A stretch of DNA of 64,000 nt from Muscardinus avellanarius (lineage: Eukaryota; Chordata; Mammalia; Rodentia; Gliridae), in NCBI GenBank assembly GCA_963383645.1, contig OY726561.1, positions 31,600,826-31,664,825 on the forward strand, read 5' to 3'. Of this stretch, positions 1,200-48,575 are shown piece by piece (position 1 is the first letter of the stretch; each line of letters opens with the position of its first letter). The notes under the pieces are model-generated. The model saw only the letters and a list, made by a program, of their open reading frames with translations. It searched no databases and was not told where the DNA came from. The position numbers and the translations under genes are program-made.

Positions 1200-1592
1200 A
1201 CAGTCCTTATTCTGTATTCTAACCACATTAATTTCTTGAGGTTGTTCATGGTTTCCTTCTTGTGGCTTTGTACATTCTATTTCTTCTGCATGAAATAATT
1301 TCCCACCCCTTTCAGTAGGATGAATGTCTATTTATCCTTCAAAATCCAGCCTAAATATTAGGTGTTCTCCTGTTAACTGTCTGTGCGCTAGTTCACACAC
1401 ACTGTGGAACATTGTATCTTGTATGAATTCCAGTGTAGTATTTTATTCTGTTGTCTTATTAGTTGTATTTTATCTGTCCTGCTCTTAGACTATAAATGTC
1501 ATGGGAGCTTGTTGATCATATGTGTTCATCTTCAGTACAGATACAAAATAGTAAGTATTCAATAAAAATTTATTGAGTTGCTAACTCTATGA
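1200..1592 (+). mobile_element. LINE-2 (L2) 3' fragment, old
   Basis: The order of words follows the L2 3' end. A 'CTGCATGAAATAATTTCCCAC' type stretch is followed by TATCCTTCAAAATCCAGCCTA. Further on come a 'TAGACTATAAATGTCATGGG' type stretch and finally CAATAAAAATTTATTGAGTTG. Divergence is high, as expected for an element that predates placental mammals. Boundaries are approximate. Assignment is by pattern only. Confidence 0.6.
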
Positions 1593-4500
1593 AATTTATT
1601 ATATTATATATTAATTATTATTAAATGTTTATTAGTACAGTAAAGACAACAACTACCACTTACCACAAAGCCAATATCTCAAGTGATTAGAATGGTATTC
1701 ACTACAAATTCTTTATCTAAACTAAAAAAAAAAAATGAGCTAGACCACTTCTTCCTAAATAATTCCCTTTTGTTGATGCTTAAGAAATTGTTCTTTACAT
1801 AAGGACAATCTAAGTGGGTAATTCCACTATTGTGAAATATAAACATTTTTAATACAAAAAATGTGCAATATTTCCAGGTGAGTTAATGTTTCCTAGAAGT
1901 CCATGTGTAGTTTTCTGGCATAATAATCTATTATGTGTTGATTCACTGGATTGCATAAGGTCCTTCCCCTGAACTGGCTCTTTTAATTAATAACATCTGG
2001 GCCAACATCATAATGTAAATCATGTTGACAAAGATATACATGCACACACTCTTGGTGCCTCTCCCCATTTTCCTCCCTCTCAATACACAGTACTCAGATT
2101 TACCTTGGTATATATTCACATGTATACACATAGTCTGTGGTAGTATTTCTATTAATGAAGCTAAGTCTTCCTCCACCCCTTACGTTTATATCTTCTTTCT
2201 AACTCCCCCTGAGGTTTCTCCTCATCATCTGGAGTTTCTCTTTAATTCACAATATATAACTATTTGGTGGTTTTGCCTCTGTGGTTTCTTCAGCTTACAA
2301 ATATGACTACTGATTTTATAATACTGAGATTATTTCTTTTGGTTTCTATTTCAGTAGATTGACTATTCTTCACTATATGCAAGAAAAATAGGTTGAGTGA
2401 TTTCTCACTTCAACTCATTTTGTTCTAGAATATCAGTTAAGGAATCACTTCCTTCACTCTTTTCTGATGAATAGAAAAATTATTTCACAGATAACATAAA
2501 TTTAATCATGAGAATGCCTTAGTTTCTGCATTTTATATCTCCTGTTCAGTTTTTCTTTATCTCATATGTCTGTAGGGTAGAATTGCCAGAAACTCAAGTT
2601 GAATCAAAACATTTATTCCTCCCAGTATGTGCCTTTATTTTGACATTTGTCAAAACCTTTGGTCACTATAAGTCTATAGTTTACATGGAGAGCTTTACTG
2701 TAAGCATCCATTTGTCATAAATACAGAAAAAGTGGTAATAATATTGAAATTTTATAATTGCAGCCATAAAATACTATTAAGCCATCTGATAGTCAAAAGA
2801 TTATAAAAGGTATACATATCTCTGAATTTAAACACATAAAAGTCAGCATTTTAACTTAGGATGTATACTTCAGAAAAATCGTTTTTCTATCTGAGGAGTA
2901 AAAATGAGCTAAGAATAGATTTGTACTGAAATAATTAAAACTGGCAAATGACACAATATGGGACTAGACTTTGTAGTTGTTTGAAGGTCAAAACAAATTT
3001 ATAATGTACGATATACTTGTCTAACCAACAGATTTAGCATAACTAAATTGAAAAGCACTGTTAGGATGGCAACAAATCAGAATTTAAATTATTGAGCAGT
3101 GGAGCTGTCGTTAAAAATGTCAAGCATGAAGTTTATTTTCCCTAGGGACATCTCACAGAATATTCTAACTTCATCATGTGATTGTTTTCTTTCTATTTTA
3201 TTATATCTAAAAAACATATGCAAGCCTATCATCTACACCATTGCTTTTCAAATTACTTGTGATCAAGCATTATATTTTCGTTTGTGATTTTTATTTGTGC
3301 CTTGTTGTAGCCCAATACTTTTATAAAACACAAGAAAAATGAGTTACTTATAAAATTAAAAAGATACAATCATACAAACTCAAACCACCAACTCTTAAAA
3401 TTATTAACAGATTCAAATGCAATTAATCTGTGATAGCATCAAGTAACTTTCAAATTTTACTGATACTTACTTTCCAATCTGTCCTCAAGGTTCTATGAAC
3501 TTGTAGGAAGCAATTGGTAAGGTAACACATGATAACACATGAGCACCCTAAGTCATAATCTTCTATGATCTGCCAGAGTCGAGGTTGTCTTAAAAGTTCA
3601 GATCACCAACGTCACTGGCAGATTTGTTACACTAAACTCACTATTCTAGGTTACCAATAAATCTCACTCATCCATGTCACTAATATTGGTGGGCCTGATA
3701 CATGGTAAGTAAAGTTTTGTTTGATTACAGGTTTTTAATGAAACATTAAAAGTTGAAAGGGGCATTGTAGCCAGTGAAACCTTAAAAGCTCTACTCACCA
3801 AGCTTATCCTGAACAGGCATGATTTAATCCATGCCTTGTTCAAACACTACACTACATTTTGAATCAAGAGGCATTTTATTCCTGCAGGTAGGATTTTAGG
3901 ATCAATTATAACTACCTTGTATTTTAATAGGTACTTCAGCATGATTATATTAATTTAAACATAAAAATCAGGCTACTTATGCAGGAGTTGAAGTATGAGA
4001 GAGCTTCTCAATAGACTTCTTATTTTAAACCTTACCAGCCAAATTACAGTGTAATTGCTTTTATTTGATCTTTTCCCATCTAAAAACTGCCTTGAGGGTG
4101 CATGCTTCAGTCCATTTAATTTGATCAAAGTCTATGATTTTTTTTTCAAAGGACTTCCAGATTTGAAGTAGCAAAGAATATTCTATGTATTTTTATCACC
4201 CCATATGGACAAGTAATTTCAATTGCTTTAAAGAAAGAAAAAGAAAGGGATGTGTATAACCTGTAGCTTTGCAATAAAGTTATAAATTTCATACTTGAAA
4301 GATAAAGCTGAGTGTTTAGAAGAATATTACTTATATTTGCCATAACTCTATTACTATTAATTATATAAAGCCTTTGCCTTAAGCTTTAATCTATCTGTTC
4401 AAATGTAATTTTGTGCCTACTTTTACTGTAAGTTTATTACTACTAATATATTTAAATATTATTGCCAAACTTTAATTATATCTAAAATAGTTTGTTTTAT

Positions 4501-5929: not shown

Positions 5930-6290
5930 TCTTTTCCTATGAAATCTCAGAGGCAGGGTACTTTATAAAGAAAAGACACCTACATATCTCACACTTTAGA
6001 GGCTGAAATGGCAATATCCGTCAGCCCATTTTTTCAACCTGGATACGTCTCCTGTCTGTGTTCAAACATGGTGGAGAGGTAGGAAGGGGAATGGCTGTTA
6101 AAATTTCTGCCACTCTTCAATATTAACACATTGGAGACACGCTTCTAGCACATGACACTTTGAGAGGATACACCCAAACTGTGTTCACCAAAGCAACAGG
6201 GTCTCTGCATGGCCCTTCCTCCAAAGGTTCATCCTTTCCCATGCAACTAGAGGCTTGGCAATGTGTCTCATTTTCCCCTGATATAAACTA
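5930..6290 (+). mobile_element. LTR-retrotransposon-like relic (MaLR-type suspected)
   Basis: The words TACTTTATAAAGAAAAGACA, 'TTTAGAGGCTGAAATGGCA', 'AAACATGGTGGAGAGG' and 'GCATGGCCCTTCCTCC' occur in the order typical of a medium-reiteration LTR-derived repeat of rodents. The exact family is not established. It lies directly left of the long inverted repeat. Confidence 0.4.
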
Positions 6291-6364
6291 ATAGTCATCA
6301 GATGATGTATATTTAATTCCTTTTAGCACTGCTTTGTGTATGTAATAGTGTTCATTTTATAGAC

Positions 6365-6852
6365 AATGGGCATAAAATGTTATACAACCTATTTTCAGGA
6401 AAGATAAATATATTCATATTCAATATTATAAGTTATAACTTATGTTTTACCTAATATCTTTCTCATAAACCTTATTTTCCAATAAACCTTTGTTTGCTTT
6501 CCCTAAAATTCTATAGTTCTTCTTGTATTTCAGATTGAAAATTTATAATTTGTCCACCCAAGGCATATTCTTATTTTATCTTTATTTTTGGTGCCTCCAA
6601 GCTACACCCCCAACACAAACTTTTATTATTTATTTTGAAACAGAGTCACACTGAGTTGCAGTGGGCCTCACTAAGTAGCTGAGGCTGTCCACAAATCGAG
6701 ATCTGTGATCCTCCTGTCTCAGCCTCCCAAATACTGGGATTACAAGCATGTGCCACCAAGCCCGGTTCAGGACTATTCTTTTAAATAATTGTTTATTTTC
6801 ATATCATCTTTCACTTCTTTCTCTGTATAGCATGTTTGCCTTGAGCCTTTGC
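6365..6852 (+). repeat. Left arm of long inverted repeat
   Basis: This 488-bp arm is the reverse complement of 7188-7679. By hand alignment there are about 19 substitutions and one 4-bp gap, so identity is near 96%. The arm contains an antisense SINE at 6581-6766, which was duplicated together with its flanks. The inner boundary is sharp: similarity stops after CCTTTGC at 6852. The outer end may extend weakly for another 15 bases. Confidence 0.95.
6581..6766 (-). mobile_element. B1-dID-type SINE in left arm
   Basis: Read on the minus strand it runs from GGGCTTGGTGGCACATGC through the ID-like AGCTTGGAGG to the tail. The ID half is shortened: the segment holding the usual AGAATGCCCCTGGGTTC is missing. 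The copy in the other arm lacks the same segment, which shows that one insertion was duplicated. Confidence 0.85.
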
Positions 6853-10013: not shown

Positions 10014-11277
10014 ATTTATTTTTTATTTTTATTGGTACATTATAGTTTAACATAATAATGTGGATCATATTGACATTGGCATAACTTCACACAGTGCTTA
10101 GTGCCCTATTGGCCACTTATTGCCCACTGCCCCACCCCCAGTTTCGACAATGAGTGTCCAGGGTAACCATGGTACATTCACACTCATACATGTATTCGAA
10201 TGTAACTCCTCCATTAATCAACCTCAGCCTCGTTCCTCCCCTACCCTTCCATTCTAGCTTTGCTGAGGTTTCCCCTCCATTATCTGGAGTCCCTTTGGTA
10301 TTCCTAATACTCCTGAGTTTGGACATATTTGAGAAAACATATGTCCCTTCTCTTTCTGTGCTTGGCTGATCTCATTTAATATAATGTACTCCAGGTCTTT
10401 CCATCTTCTTGCAAATGACATGATTTGTTCTTTATTGCTGAGTAGAATTCCATGGTATGTGTTTTCCATAATTTTGCAATCCATTCATCTGTTGATGGAA
10501 ACCTAGGTTGATTCTGTCTTTTGGCTATTGTGAATTGTTCTATGAACTTGGGTATCCATATGTTACTGTAGTTCTCTGATTTCAACCCCTTTGGAAAGAT
10601 ATCCAGGAGTGGTATAGGCAGATCATATGGTGGATCCATTCCCACTTTTCTAAGGAATCTCCACACTGATATCCATAGCGGCTGAACTAATTTGTGTTCC
10701 CACCAACAGTGTAAAAGAATTCCTATTTTCCCACATCCTCTCCAGCATTTGTTGTTATTTGGCTTCTTTATGCTTGCCACTCTGATTAGGGTTAGATGGA
10801 ATCTCAGTATAGTCTTGATTTGCATTTAACTAATAGCTAATGATGTCGAACATTTTTTCATGTATCTATTGGCCATTTGTACATCTTTTGTGAGGTATCT
10901 ATTCAATTCAGTTGCCCATTTCTTGATTGGGTTATTTGCTACTGTAGAGTCTTTTGAGCTATTTGTATATTCTGATTATTACCCCTCTATGAGAGTAGTG
11001 GCTGGTAAAGATCTCCCATTTTGTAGGTTTTCTCTTTAGATTCTTGATGGTTTCTTTTGATGAGCAGAAACTTTTTAGTTTGATTCCATTCCACTCATTA
11101 ATTCTTGTTTTAATTTCCTGCACTTTGGAAGTCTTATTGAGAAAGTTAGTACCTATACCTATATGTTGTAGTGTTGATCCTATGTCCTCCTCTAAATGTG
11201 TCGCAGTCTGTGGTCTAATTTCCAAGTCTGATCCATCTGAGTCGATTAAACTCCTGAATTTCTCTTTCTGATTTCAT
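10014..11277 (-). mobile_element. L1 LINE, 5'-truncated (ORF2 3' end plus 3'UTR)
   Basis: On the minus strand this reads from late ORF2 through the 3'UTR to an A-rich tail at 10014-10031. Typical ORF2 words are present, such as 'TGGAATTCTACTCAGCAAT' reversed near 10440. The remainder of the L1 is absent, as usual for truncated reverse transcription. It is the longest L1 segment in the window. The same 3' end recurs at 18.6, 42.4 and 48.1 kb. Confidence 0.92.
10376..11225 (-). pseudogene. L1 ORF2 C-terminal remnant, broken frames
   Basis: Two open pieces, 88 codons at 10959-11225 and 149 codons at 10376-10825, give recognisable C-terminal L1 ORF2 protein. The second contains HCWWEHKLVQPLW, GMDPPYDLPIPLL and FPSTDEWIAKLWKTHTMEFY. 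They are separated by stops and frame shifts. The endonuclease and reverse transcriptase domains are absent, so no active protein can be made. Confidence 0.9.
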
Positions 11278-26664: not shown

Positions 26665-26723
26665 CACATGCTCAGGAATTCTGGACAACATACTATGTAA
26701 GAAAAATGCTTGGGAGGAGGGCC

Positions 26724-26731
26724 AAGATGGC
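26724..26731 (+). promoter_or_regulatory. YY1-like site in monomer
   Basis: AAGATGGC within GGCCAAGATGGCAGC. In human L1 a YY1 site of this type near the 5' end directs accurate transcription start. Here it opens an A monomer. Confidence 0.5.
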
Positions 26732-26892
26732 AGCGGCAGCCAGTATCGGGGAGAGGCAGGTAGATTCATTCTAATCCACCCTGAACTTTTTAGAAAATCT
26801 CCCCCAAAATAGACTGCACCTGTCCCACATGCTCAGGAACTCTGGACAACATACTATGTAAGAAAAACATTTGGGGCGCATCAGATGGAGCC

Positions 26893-27525
26893 CTACATAA
26901 TCGGGTTGGCTGGTGCCTCACATCCCAGGAGCCAAGGGCCCTTCTGGCAGCCTTGCTCCTCTGTGTAGCACTGGGGCTGGTGTGCTCGGAGCAGCAGAAC
27001 CAGCTCTCCATGGTGAAGCTGTGGGCCTCTGCTCTTGGTGGGAAGATAAAACACATTGCTAATAAGTACTTGGGCCCCCAACCCCTGCAAAAGATGCATA
27101 CTGTTTTCTTTCATTAAGAAATATTGAAGAGGGAGAAAGATGGCGGCAACTGCAGCTGCAGCGGTGACCATGGCCAGAGTGGTGTAGGTTGGCAGTGGCT
27201 GAATAGGACATGCATCCCTCTGAGAAACCCTGGACAACAGAATGTGATTTAATAGCTGATTGGGAAAACACACAGAAACAATTTCAGTCATGATTATCTG
27301 AAATATAGGAGAGAGAGTGGAAAATGGAGAAATTAGAGGCAAAATGCCAGCACAGCGCCTGACACTGCATGAAAAGTGATTTTTTTGGAGAGATATTTCA
27401 GACGAGATCAGAAAGCAAACTGCTCCTGCCACATATCCATAGAAATACTTAACAACAACATACTCTAGGAGAGACCAACAAGACGGCAGCAGTGGCCAGT
27501 ATTCAGGAGAGGCAGACAGATCCAA
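26893..27525 (-). other. Longest open frame of the window, antisense in the array (210 codons)
   Basis: The frame runs antisense across monomer types A and B. Its start, MDLSASPEYWP, recurs as LDLSASSKYWP in another antisense frame at 27640-27825. QMFFLHSMLSRVPEHV in the frame at 26790-27056 recurs as QIFFLHSMLFRIPAHM in that same 27640-27825 frame. The repetition follows from the tandem DNA units. No domain is recognisable. Primate L1 has a known antisense frame (ORF0) in its 5'UTR; similarity to it is of position only. Probably not a functional gene. Confidence 0.25.
27137..27144 (+). promoter_or_regulatory. YY1-like site in monomer
   Basis: AAGATGGC in GAGAAAGATGGCGGCAAC, heading the third, more diverged repeat block after the first B monomer. 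Confidence 0.45.
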
Positions 27526-27641
27526 TCAAATCCGCCTTGAATTTTTGAAGACATCTCCCCAAATATAGACTATTCCTGCCCCACATGCTCAGGAACTCTG
27601 GATAGCATACTCTGTAAGAAAAAGTTTTGTAGACATGGACT

Positions 27642-27649
27642 AAGATGGC
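27642..27649 (+). promoter_or_regulatory. YY1-like site in monomer
   Basis: AAGATGGC in ACTAAGATGGCAGCAG heading the last A monomer. The equivalent site of the preceding monomer, at 27480-27487, reads AAGACGGC and has lost the ATGG core. Confidence 0.5.
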
Positions 27650-28053
27650 AGCAGTGGCGGCGGCCAGTATTTGGAAGAGGCAGACAGATCCAATCCAATC
27701 CACCTTGGATTTTTGAAGAAATCTCCCTCAAAAGTAGACTCCTCCTGCCACATATGTGCAGGAATTCTGAACAACATACTATGTAAGAAAAATATCTGTG
27801 GCAAGTTGGAGGGAGCTCCTCCCATATTTCTGGGCCAGCTCGCTGTACCAGGTGTCCCAGGAGACCTCAGCTTATGGCCACCAAGTTAATCTGCACTGCA
27901 CTAGGGACCAGGGTATGCTTGGATAAGTGGATTCTACTCTTCATTTTGAGGCTGCAAGCCTCCACTTTCAGTGGGGAGATAAAATCCATTGCTACTATGG
28001 AATTGGGCTCCCAGCTTCTGCAAATAAGAGGTGCTGTTTTCTCCTACTTAAAG

Positions 28054-28054
<1 letters not shown>

Positions 28055-28130
<76 letters not shown>
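28055..28130. repeat. (TA)n(GA)n compound microsatellite
   Basis: About 18 TA units up to 28092 pass directly into about 19 GA units. It sits at the end of the second B monomer, where the first B copy has only AAATATTGAAGAGGGAGAAA. That offers a seed for both runs. Confidence 0.95.
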
Positions 28131-28133
<3 letters not shown>

Positions 28134-28504
28134 GGAAACCTCTGTAAACATTCTGCCCACAGTGACAAGGAACTGGAGACTGCTGTGGGGCAAGACTGGG
28201 GGCTGGAGCCAGTGAGGCCAGGCCCAGAGCCTGCCCTGGGGCGAGGCCAGGTCTGGAGCAAGCAAGGCCGGGCCTGGAGCCTGTTGTGTGGTAGGCCTGG
28301 AACTGGGGCATACTCCACAGCAAAGGGCCAGCGGATTTCTTCAGCTGTGTGGCCAGGAAGCAGTAGAAGCTGATGCTTCCTCACTTAATCTCTCAGCAGA
28401 TTGCTAGATCCAAGTGACCTATATTAAAAAAAAAAATTGGTTGTTAGTGGATCATCTTGTTAAAGTTACTCACCTTCTGGCATTCAGGTTTTCAGTAAGT
28501 AGGA

Positions 28505-29182
28505 ATAAGTGTGGAGAAATGGAAGCTCTAATACATTGTTGCTGGGATTGCAAGTTGGTGCAACCACTTTGGAGAAAAGTATAGAAGATCCTCAGAAGAA
28601 GGAAAATGAACTTACCATATTATCCAGCAACACCACCTCTGGGTGTCTACCAAAAATAATGAAAACCAAAATACCAAACTAATGTATGAACAACCATGTT
28701 CATAGCTGCACAGTTCACCATTGCCAAACTGTGAAACCAACCAAGATGTCCTTCAACAGATGAGTGGATTTAAAACTGTGGGATAAGTACACAATGAAAT
28801 TTTGCCCAGCCATAAGGAAGAAAAAAATTATGGCATTTACAGTGAAATATCACAAAAAATAAGAAATCAGATGCTTTTCTTAATGTGCAAAATATGATGG
28901 AGAAATGGGAAGGAAGAGGAACTCTAGATGAAGAAGGGACCCCTATAGAGGAGCAATTAAGGTGACATATCTAAGGGGATAAGAGGGAGAATAAGGGAAA
29001 CTCTTTAAAACACATAATGTATTTAAACATATCAAAGTCAATCAGGAAGCTAAGCATGGGTAGGAGGGAGGAGGAGAGAAGGGGTTAGAGATTGGGTAGG
29101 GGTTGATTTGGTGATGTGTACATGTATATCTCCACAAGTTTTTTATCCCATGAATACAATGCACCAATAAAAATTTATAAAA
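28505..29182 (+). mobile_element. L1 ORF2 3' end and 3'UTR, sense
   Basis: GTGGAGAAATGGAAGCTCTA and the following bases are late ORF2, followed by 'CCATGTTCATAGCTGCAC' and the 3'UTR with GGAGGAGAGAAGGGGTTAGA. It ends in 'CAATGCACCAATAAAAATTT'. It is the same 3' terminus as at 30.4 and 40.0 kb. No ORF1, endonuclease or reverse transcriptase part lies between the 5'UTR-like array and this piece. Confidence 0.9.
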
Positions 29183-29280
29183 TAATGATTTGCAATTATG
29201 GGCAGGTTTTAAGTAGTAGCATTTTCCCCTAAAGTGTCCATTTAAAGGGAACGATAGGACATATTTTTTATTTATTTATT

Positions 29281-47648: not shown

Positions 47649-48084
47649 CACTTTATCTTACTTTTTAAAGCTATTTTAGGCATTTCTTTTACTATACCAA
47701 TTTTTAAATAATCTCATAAAATTCTAGAAAGTAAAATAGATAGCCGTAGCTGGGATTTTAATTAGATTTCTCTATTTCAAAAACATCTTGAATATACTTT
47801 GTCATTTTAGTTGTTTAGACCATTTAATAACTTCAAACAATATTTATAATGTTCAATTAGATTCCAAGACTTGATAGATTAATTCAGTAGCATTTAATAT
47901 TTTCCCTTTTCAAATTTAGCTTCTCATATAAAATTTACCTTATTTATTGCTAGAGTAAATTCATTCATATATGTTCATATTTTATCTAACAATTATTTTT
48001 GGTAAGTTTCTACAAAAGTTTTTGAGGATGTAAGAATGTGATCAGATCAGTAACCAAAGTATTAATTTATATATTCCTTTCAAT

Positions 48085-48575
48085 TAATTTTTTTTAATTT
48101 TTTATCTGTGCCTTGTATTAGTACATCTTTTTGGGATACAAGATGGTGGAGACATACATGCACACTTCACCCAATTAGCCATTACCCAGTTTCCGCCTCA
48201 TTCCCTCTCCCTCCCTCCTCAAATTTGGCTTACTGATTGTCATTGATGTGTTTGTTAAAATACATCATGTGCATTAGAGAATTTCCCTCTTCCCCCCTCT
48301 CACTCACTCAGGTTGCCTTATTTGCTCATCTATAGAATTTCCTTCTTCATCCAGATTTCCTCCTAAGACTCATTTTCTCCCTAGTTTCTGCATATTAGGA
48401 AGAGCATTTGATTTCTTATTTTTTGTGACTGTTTAATCTCACTTAGCATAATATCCTCCAGTTCCATCCATTTTCTTATAAACGAAGTAATTGTGTTTTT
48501 CTTTATGGCTGAGTAAATTTCCATGTGTACATATCCCATAGTTGTGGATCGCATTCATCTGTTGATGGACTTCTT
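48085..48575 (-). mobile_element. L1 LINE 3' end (diverged family)
   Basis: Antisense: 'GTATTAGTACATCTTTTTGGG', TACAAGATGGTGGAGACATA, 'ATCTCACTTAGCATAATATCC' and CATTCATCTGTTGATGGACT. The 3'UTR differs from the 10- and 42-kb copies and resembles that at 59.5 kb, which points to a second L1 subfamily. Confidence 0.85.

Follow-up and report, generated by a model that had tools for sequence, protein, structure and literature searches.

The tandem array that begins at position 26665 of the window, a stretch of 64,000 nucleotides from Muscardinus avellanarius (contig OY726561.1, positions 31,600,826 to 31,664,825), very probably forms the 5′ part of a composite, non-autonomous retroposon about 2.5–3.5 kb long that is moved in trans by LINE-1 proteins and whose units of type B come from the start of the host gene CACNA2D3, probably its exons 1 and 2. 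A first-pass annotation had placed the array at 26665–28420 and read it as L1 promoter monomers in the order A-A-B-(A-like)-A-A-B. Self-alignment and shuffled controls confirmed the array and the order of its units, but not the end, since the element runs on to about 29190. What remains of the promoter-monomer reading is the 5′ head of a retroelement, with a start word and a LINE-1 tail; no L1 ORF1 was found behind it in the copies read.

In the window copy, which spans 26665–29190, a landmark word lies at 26665, 26826, 27582, and 27751, giving spacings of 161, 756, and 169 bp; the spacing of 161 announced at first was recovered, whereas that of 167 was measured as 169. When the window was compared with itself, 26665–27124 aligned with 27582–28059 over 482 columns, with 70% identity and an E-value of 8e-50. 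Against 200 block-shuffled controls, the three full A units resembled one another with z 41–51, and the two B units, B1 and B2, with z 27. All features of this copy are on the forward strand. The first is a partial A monomer (26665–26714), in which, by comparison with other copies, A0 is missing and the greater part of the first A as well. It is followed by an A monomer beginning with CCAAGATGGC (26715–26875), B1 (26876–27130), an A′ unit (27131–27470), two further A monomers (27471–27630 and 27631–27800), and B2 (27801–28055), the three A monomers being delimited by the landmark word, copy comparison, and shuffled controls. Similarity to other copies ends at 26665, while these extend further upstream; because it starts inside an A, the window copy is considered to be 5′-truncated.

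The A′ unit, formerly the "A-like" one, proved by copy comparison and shuffled controls to consist of two pieces, an A0-type 5′ half (about 27131–27320) and a decayed A 3′ half (about 27361–27470). The former reaches z 37 against the A0 of locus L013 (block-shuffled controls), and the latter reaches z 10 against the A at 27631 but only 1.6–4.4 against the other A units. A0 is a third monomer type beside A and B. The A0 of L013 has no detectable relation to A in shuffled controls (z 1.0 or less), and the A0′ of the window copy has only a weak one (z up to 3.6). Since the A-like unit is A0 plus decayed A, the head reads as a repeated block, [A0-A-A-B1]-[A0′-a-A-A-B2]. The two-type arrangement proposed earlier holds for the recurrence of A and B, but it included neither the third type nor the host source of B. 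A YY1-type word had also been reported at the start of several A copies, and this agrees with the window as read by eye: of four A or A-like units, three begin with AAGATGGC, while the start at 27471 reads AAGACGGC.

Downstream of B2 come an (AT)n(AG)n microsatellite (28056–28130), a linker with a short GC-rich VNTR (28131–28430), a remnant of the 3′ end of LINE-1 ORF2 (28470–28832), and a LINE-1 3′UTR with an A-rich tail (28833–29190), the last being recognized from a self-match and from the 3′ ends of other copies. The order across the family is [A0-A-A-B1]-[A0′-a-A-A-B2]-(AT)n(AG)n-short VNTR-LINE-1 ORF2 end-LINE-1 3′UTR-A-rich tail. In the window copy the VNTR occupies roughly 28175–28310, with a weak 50-bp period that is barely above other periods. 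Among the eight copies in which the linker was examined (334–435 bp, longest in L025), a period of 50 was best or tied best for its GC-rich part in seven and 51 in the eighth, with low match fractions of 0.34–0.44. The linker also matches, at up to 73%, a clear and long 50-bp array elsewhere in the genome. Like VNTR composites, the family has in its middle a GC-rich VNTR whose number of units varies. In a tblastn search with an ORF2 C-terminal-like frame from the window, 28510–28770 matched that frame (49% identity, E 2e-19), and the 3′UTR tail matched 48078–48428 on the other strand (72.6%, window self-comparison). On the minus strand, at 10376–10825, the window also holds an open frame of 149 aa that resembles the C-terminal part of LINE-1 ORF2, in an L1 piece that is apparently younger than the composite tail.

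The element belongs to a dispersed family. The 2.5-Gb genome was searched with window positions 26665–27665, which gave 3164 first-look candidates; the best 40, which were scored, are the window itself and 39 other places, the latter 82–86% identical to the query along its whole length or the greater part of it. Twenty of the 39 were taken with their flanks (loci bear L numbers and contigs C numbers), making 21 copies with that of the window. All 21 have B1 and A′, and 20 have B2 (near full length in 18, partial in L013 and L026, absent from L010). The linker with its VNTR is found in 19 copies (not in L012 and L026). The LINE-1 tail likewise lies downstream in 19 (not in L012 and L028), being partial in L021 and standing behind an ORF2-like piece in L026. 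An A0-type unit lies upstream in 17, the exceptions being L010, L011, L028, and the window copy. LINE-1 tails are at a mean distance of 0.046 from the consensus of this piece (16 copies, CpG sites excluded). With a neutral rate of 2–3e-9 per site and year, this gives a rough age of about 15–23 million years for the family. No account of it was found among the open-access papers listed by literature searches, and repeat databases may list it under a technical name.

AAGATGG was found in 12 of the 18 upstream regions aligned, in ten of them as AAGATGGC, 39–88 bases ahead of the shared A0 core and near the point where the copy flanks diverge, at a distance that varies among copies. In the other six the word is decayed (L014 and L017, by eye) or missing (L011, L022, L024, and L028). 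On the 3′ side the copies stop close to CACCAATAAAAATTTAT, behind which A-rich sequence begins. Flanking duplications of 14 bp (L013) and 17 bp (L014 and L017) were detected in three of 18 copies tested, and none of 306 mismatched flank pairs exceeded 12 bp. The remaining 15 copies yielded no duplication clearly above chance, and none was found around the window copy, which is one of them. The 11-bp duplications of L015 and L027 (the latter AT-rich) are of a length reached by five of the 306 controls, and that of L020, also 11 bp, was equalled by one of 17 mismatched flanks. The family thus shows, in three copies, target-site duplications of the L1 type, together with an A-rich 3′ end, as expected of a retroposon mobilized by LINE-1.

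The B units were traced to CACNA2D3, which encodes alpha2delta-3. A sequence of this protein served as the starting query and matched named alpha2delta-3 proteins (467 at E 1e-3, 120 of them listed), and five such proteins were then searched against the whole window by tblastn. B1, through a protein-like stretch at 26914–27099, matched the three placental proteins with 60–63% identity over 60–63 aa (E 1e-12 to 5e-12) and those of wombat and budgerigar with 66% over 41 aa (E 8e-9). B2, through 27826–28023, matched all five with 43–54% identity over 43–67 aa (E 2e-7 to 2e-4). These two units account for every match below E 1e-3 in the window, the one other match standing at E 0.7. The B1 consensus of 21 copies is 84% identical to residues 31–68, with a frameshift between its two parts, and the B2 consensus of 18 copies is 58% identical over residues 1–67, signal peptide included. 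Because the consensus units read closer to the gene, B1 and B2 are concluded to derive from the beginning of the CACNA2D3 coding sequence (residues 1–68 approximately). Protein and profile searches with the B readings returned nothing from PDB, Pfam, or short proteins, and alpha2delta-3 peptide strings had no match in a text search of the literature.

In three of the 120 listed CACNA2D3 proteins (from cat and two turtles) the sequence changes at residue 42 to a different N-terminus, and in a fourth this residue is the first; both point to an exon border here. A search of the animal's own genome with residues 1–127 gave 5118 candidates, for which 150 matches were listed. All but one of these are repeat-like. 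Each of the 149 spans residues 41/42 within a single alignment, with its end at 66–73 in 134 cases, further on in 14 (84 at most), and at 65 in one; their context was read where they fall in the copies taken with flanks. The remaining listed match, on contig C18 near 28.37 Mb, is 95% identical to residues 68–108 and is taken as the next exon of the gene itself (exon 3-like). With 41/42 crossed and the ends mostly at 66–73, B looks like exons 1 and 2 joined and ending at the border of exon 3. It was thus probably derived from spliced CACNA2D3 RNA; exons 1 and 2 of the gene itself were not recognized among the matches listed. The 14 matches that pass residue 73 may include some exon 3 or may reflect chance extension. 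Pairs of CACNA2D3-like matches only about 380–425 bp apart, as against roughly 925 bp in the window copy, occur at C23:47906655/47907045, C17:35704171/35704554, and C2:125140963/125141386; such pairs probably represent further subfamilies whose tandem units are arranged differently.

Another explanation of the B units would be that processed pseudogenes of the usual kind, or a CACNA2D3 locus duplicated in place, came to lie beside L1 debris by chance. The intron-less appearance of B suits a pseudogene, but the order A0-A-A-B-A′-A-A-B-VNTR-tail recurs on many contigs, and the exon 3-like match is on C18 whereas the window is on C5, so that this explanation is scarcely credible. The architecture that the copies share contradicts it, and duplication of the CACNA2D3 locus was rejected. 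The tandem organization and the dispersion of copies could also recall a satellite or the LTR of an endogenous retrovirus. However, each copy has few units in a fixed order, unlike the long arrays of a satellite, and a LINE-1 3′ end with an A-rich tail speaks against both. LTR elements usually give duplications of 4–6 bp, as opposed to the 14–17 bp seen in three copies, and the chance that the units are satellite or LTR is judged very small. The first-pass annotation would have given up its reading if the units had occurred only as satellite or LTR parts and never upstream of L1 ORF1; the second half of this agrees with the copies read, in which no ORF1 stands behind the units, but the first half does not.

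A more serious alternative is that the array is the tandem 5′UTR of an autonomous L1 subfamily, and that the copies read are internally deleted or spliced derivatives without ORF1 and most of ORF2. The AAGATGGC start, the monomers, and a LINE-1 ORF2 end and 3′UTR on the same strand would all fit, as would a 211-aa ORF2-like frame noticed by eye between B2 and the tail of L026 (oriented positions 6055–6687), a piece that may be either a nested L1 or a sign of a fuller relative. On the other hand, ORF1 queries found no ORF1 in any of the 21 element bodies, which also lack a match to the first 397 aa of ORF2, and in 19 copies the VNTR-bearing linker occupies the place of ORF1 and most of ORF2. 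None of A, A0, A′, and B was found in the 1.5-kb flanks of ORF1 at 20 loci, mostly young L1s, taken from 38,950 candidates. The suggested check whether the units precede a full L1 ORF1 therefore gave a negative answer in these bodies and at these ORF1 loci alike. As the ORF1 sample is biased to young L1s, an older L1 with an A0/A/B head may exist. Altogether, descent from an autonomous L1 is judged possible but rather unlikely. It also overlaps with the composite reading, because a derivative of this kind would itself count as a non-autonomous composite; the probabilities of the two are therefore not additive.

Returning to the composite retroposon, the lack of ORF1 and of the first 397 aa of ORF2 implies that the copies read cannot move themselves; judging from their sequence, they have no coding capacity for their own mobilization beyond a decayed ORF2 end in the tail, with L026 as a possible exception. 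Matches to ORF1 at L016, L020, L023, L027, and L028 fall outside the element or, at L020, belong to a half-L1 that is inserted behind the first A and ahead of the second. A fusion of A0-A to ORF1 in L020 was accordingly rejected; a 10-bp word is common to both sides of the nested half-L1, a match made without a control. This half-L1 (oriented positions 1278–4206 approximately) and another at L033 (C2:61943642 region) carry an ORF1 frame of 306 aa with, about 1 kb downstream of it, a 3′ end of the LINE-1 type, and we take them to be HAL1-like. Many of the ORF1 places listed in the genome (at least 150) have open frames 329 aa long whose domain scores are equal. Given these many frames, L1 looks young in this genome, and a LINE-1 helper is probably available now.

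The LINE-1 3′ sequence, the A-rich tail, and the flanking duplications argue for mobilization in trans by LINE-1. RNA polymerase II would start near the first AAGATGG of A0, to judge from where copies begin, and the transcript would run through the tandem A0, A, and B monomers, which would have a promoter role, and on through the short VNTR into the LINE-1-derived 3′ end. LINE-1 proteins would then copy this RNA into new sites in trans, aided by the LINE-1 3′ end and the A tail. The start word suggests that A0 and A may be linked to LINE-1 5′UTRs. As for B, the most likely route is that early CACNA2D3 exons were spliced to a foreign acceptor and that the chimeric RNA was retrotransposed; a later duplication of the whole head would have given [A0-A-A-B] twice.

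Mouse L1 elements have tandem monomers in their 5′UTR and a YY1-type start word. The family described here resembles them in its tandem units of 160–250 bp ahead of a LINE-1-related body and in this word, but it has three unit types, one of them from a host gene; as no ORF1 was found downstream of the head in the copies read, it is kept apart from the L1s with promoter monomers. Like HAL1 (half-L1, with ORF1 only), it is non-autonomous and has a LINE-1-type 3′ end, and both occur in the same genome; unlike the HAL1-like L020 and L033, it has neither ORF1 nor their other 5′ sequence. The closest parallel is with the composite families SVA, LAVA, PVA (PTGR2-VNTR-Alu), and FVA, which are also non-autonomous and dispersed, insert in the LINE-1 manner, and join a 5′ domain and a VNTR to a 3′ domain that was acquired from a different element or from a gene. 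One account states that PVA carries a host exon, that the four families have a 5′ CT-hexamer/Alu-like region in common, and that VNTR composites are specific to hominoid primates, even though its Table 1 also has SVA2 of rhesus macaque (PMC4432496). By contrast, the present family as read has A0 at its 5′ end, together with CACNA2D3 exons and tandem AAGATGGC monomers, and its 3′ domain is a LINE-1 ORF2 end with 3′UTR. It is set apart from the four because their common 5′ CT-hexamer/Alu-like region was not noticed in the copies read. According to another paper, SVA_F1 acquired the first exon of MAST2 and the chimpanzee pt_SVA_D6 that of STK40, on the 5′ side and probably by splicing, with 84 and 94 copies, respectively (PMC6139936). 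In the present family, too, the first exon of a host gene was probably captured by splicing; the differences are that CACNA2D3 contributed exons 1 and 2, twice, and that these lie between monomers and not at the extreme 5′ end. With 5118 first-look candidates, the copy number is probably above those two figures.

The balance is slightly in favour of the view that this is a second, independent lineage of VNTR composites outside apes and monkeys. Its older members would have spliced CACNA2D3 exons 1 and 2 in a LINE-1-style head and a short VNTR, and in a younger branch, multiplying still or until very recently, the VNTR would have grown to dozens of units on a LINE-1 3′UTR. If such a lineage is independent, it lets one ask which features make an RNA a good LINE-1 substrate, the features in question being the GC-rich VNTR, the captured early exons, and the LINE-1 tail. 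It would also exemplify how host exons are turned into repeated units of a retroelement 5′ head, and it has a bearing on how new 5′ ends of the LINE-1 type originate, a question still open in general. If the CACNA2D3-derived units kept a putative regulatory activity, many dispersed copies could act as promoters.

This putative younger branch came to light at the top ORF1 locus (L029/L049, C1:6710500-6714500, minus strand), where about 58 GC-rich units of 50 bp form an array, with a higher-order period of 100 bp, that is followed by a LINE-1 3′UTR (68% to the window tail) and then by a 5′-truncated young L1. A query of 500 bases from this locus gave 1826 candidates, and the best 40, which were scored, are its own place and 39 others that are 99–100% identical over 499 bases (e.g. 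C5:41605880-41606378). This near identity among the 39 scored copies indicates that a family of VNTR plus LINE-1 3′UTR multiplied very recently, and it is perhaps still active. No large block of tied scores was seen among the 150 CACNA2D3 matches listed. The 39 copies match up to within one base of the junction between the 3′UTR and the L1 at L029, which is the extent of the query. A young member at L026 has about six units, a LINE-1 3′UTR, an A-rich tail, and the same 15-bp word on both sides (by eye), and it ends in its LINE-1 tail, unlike that of L029, which is joined to an L1.
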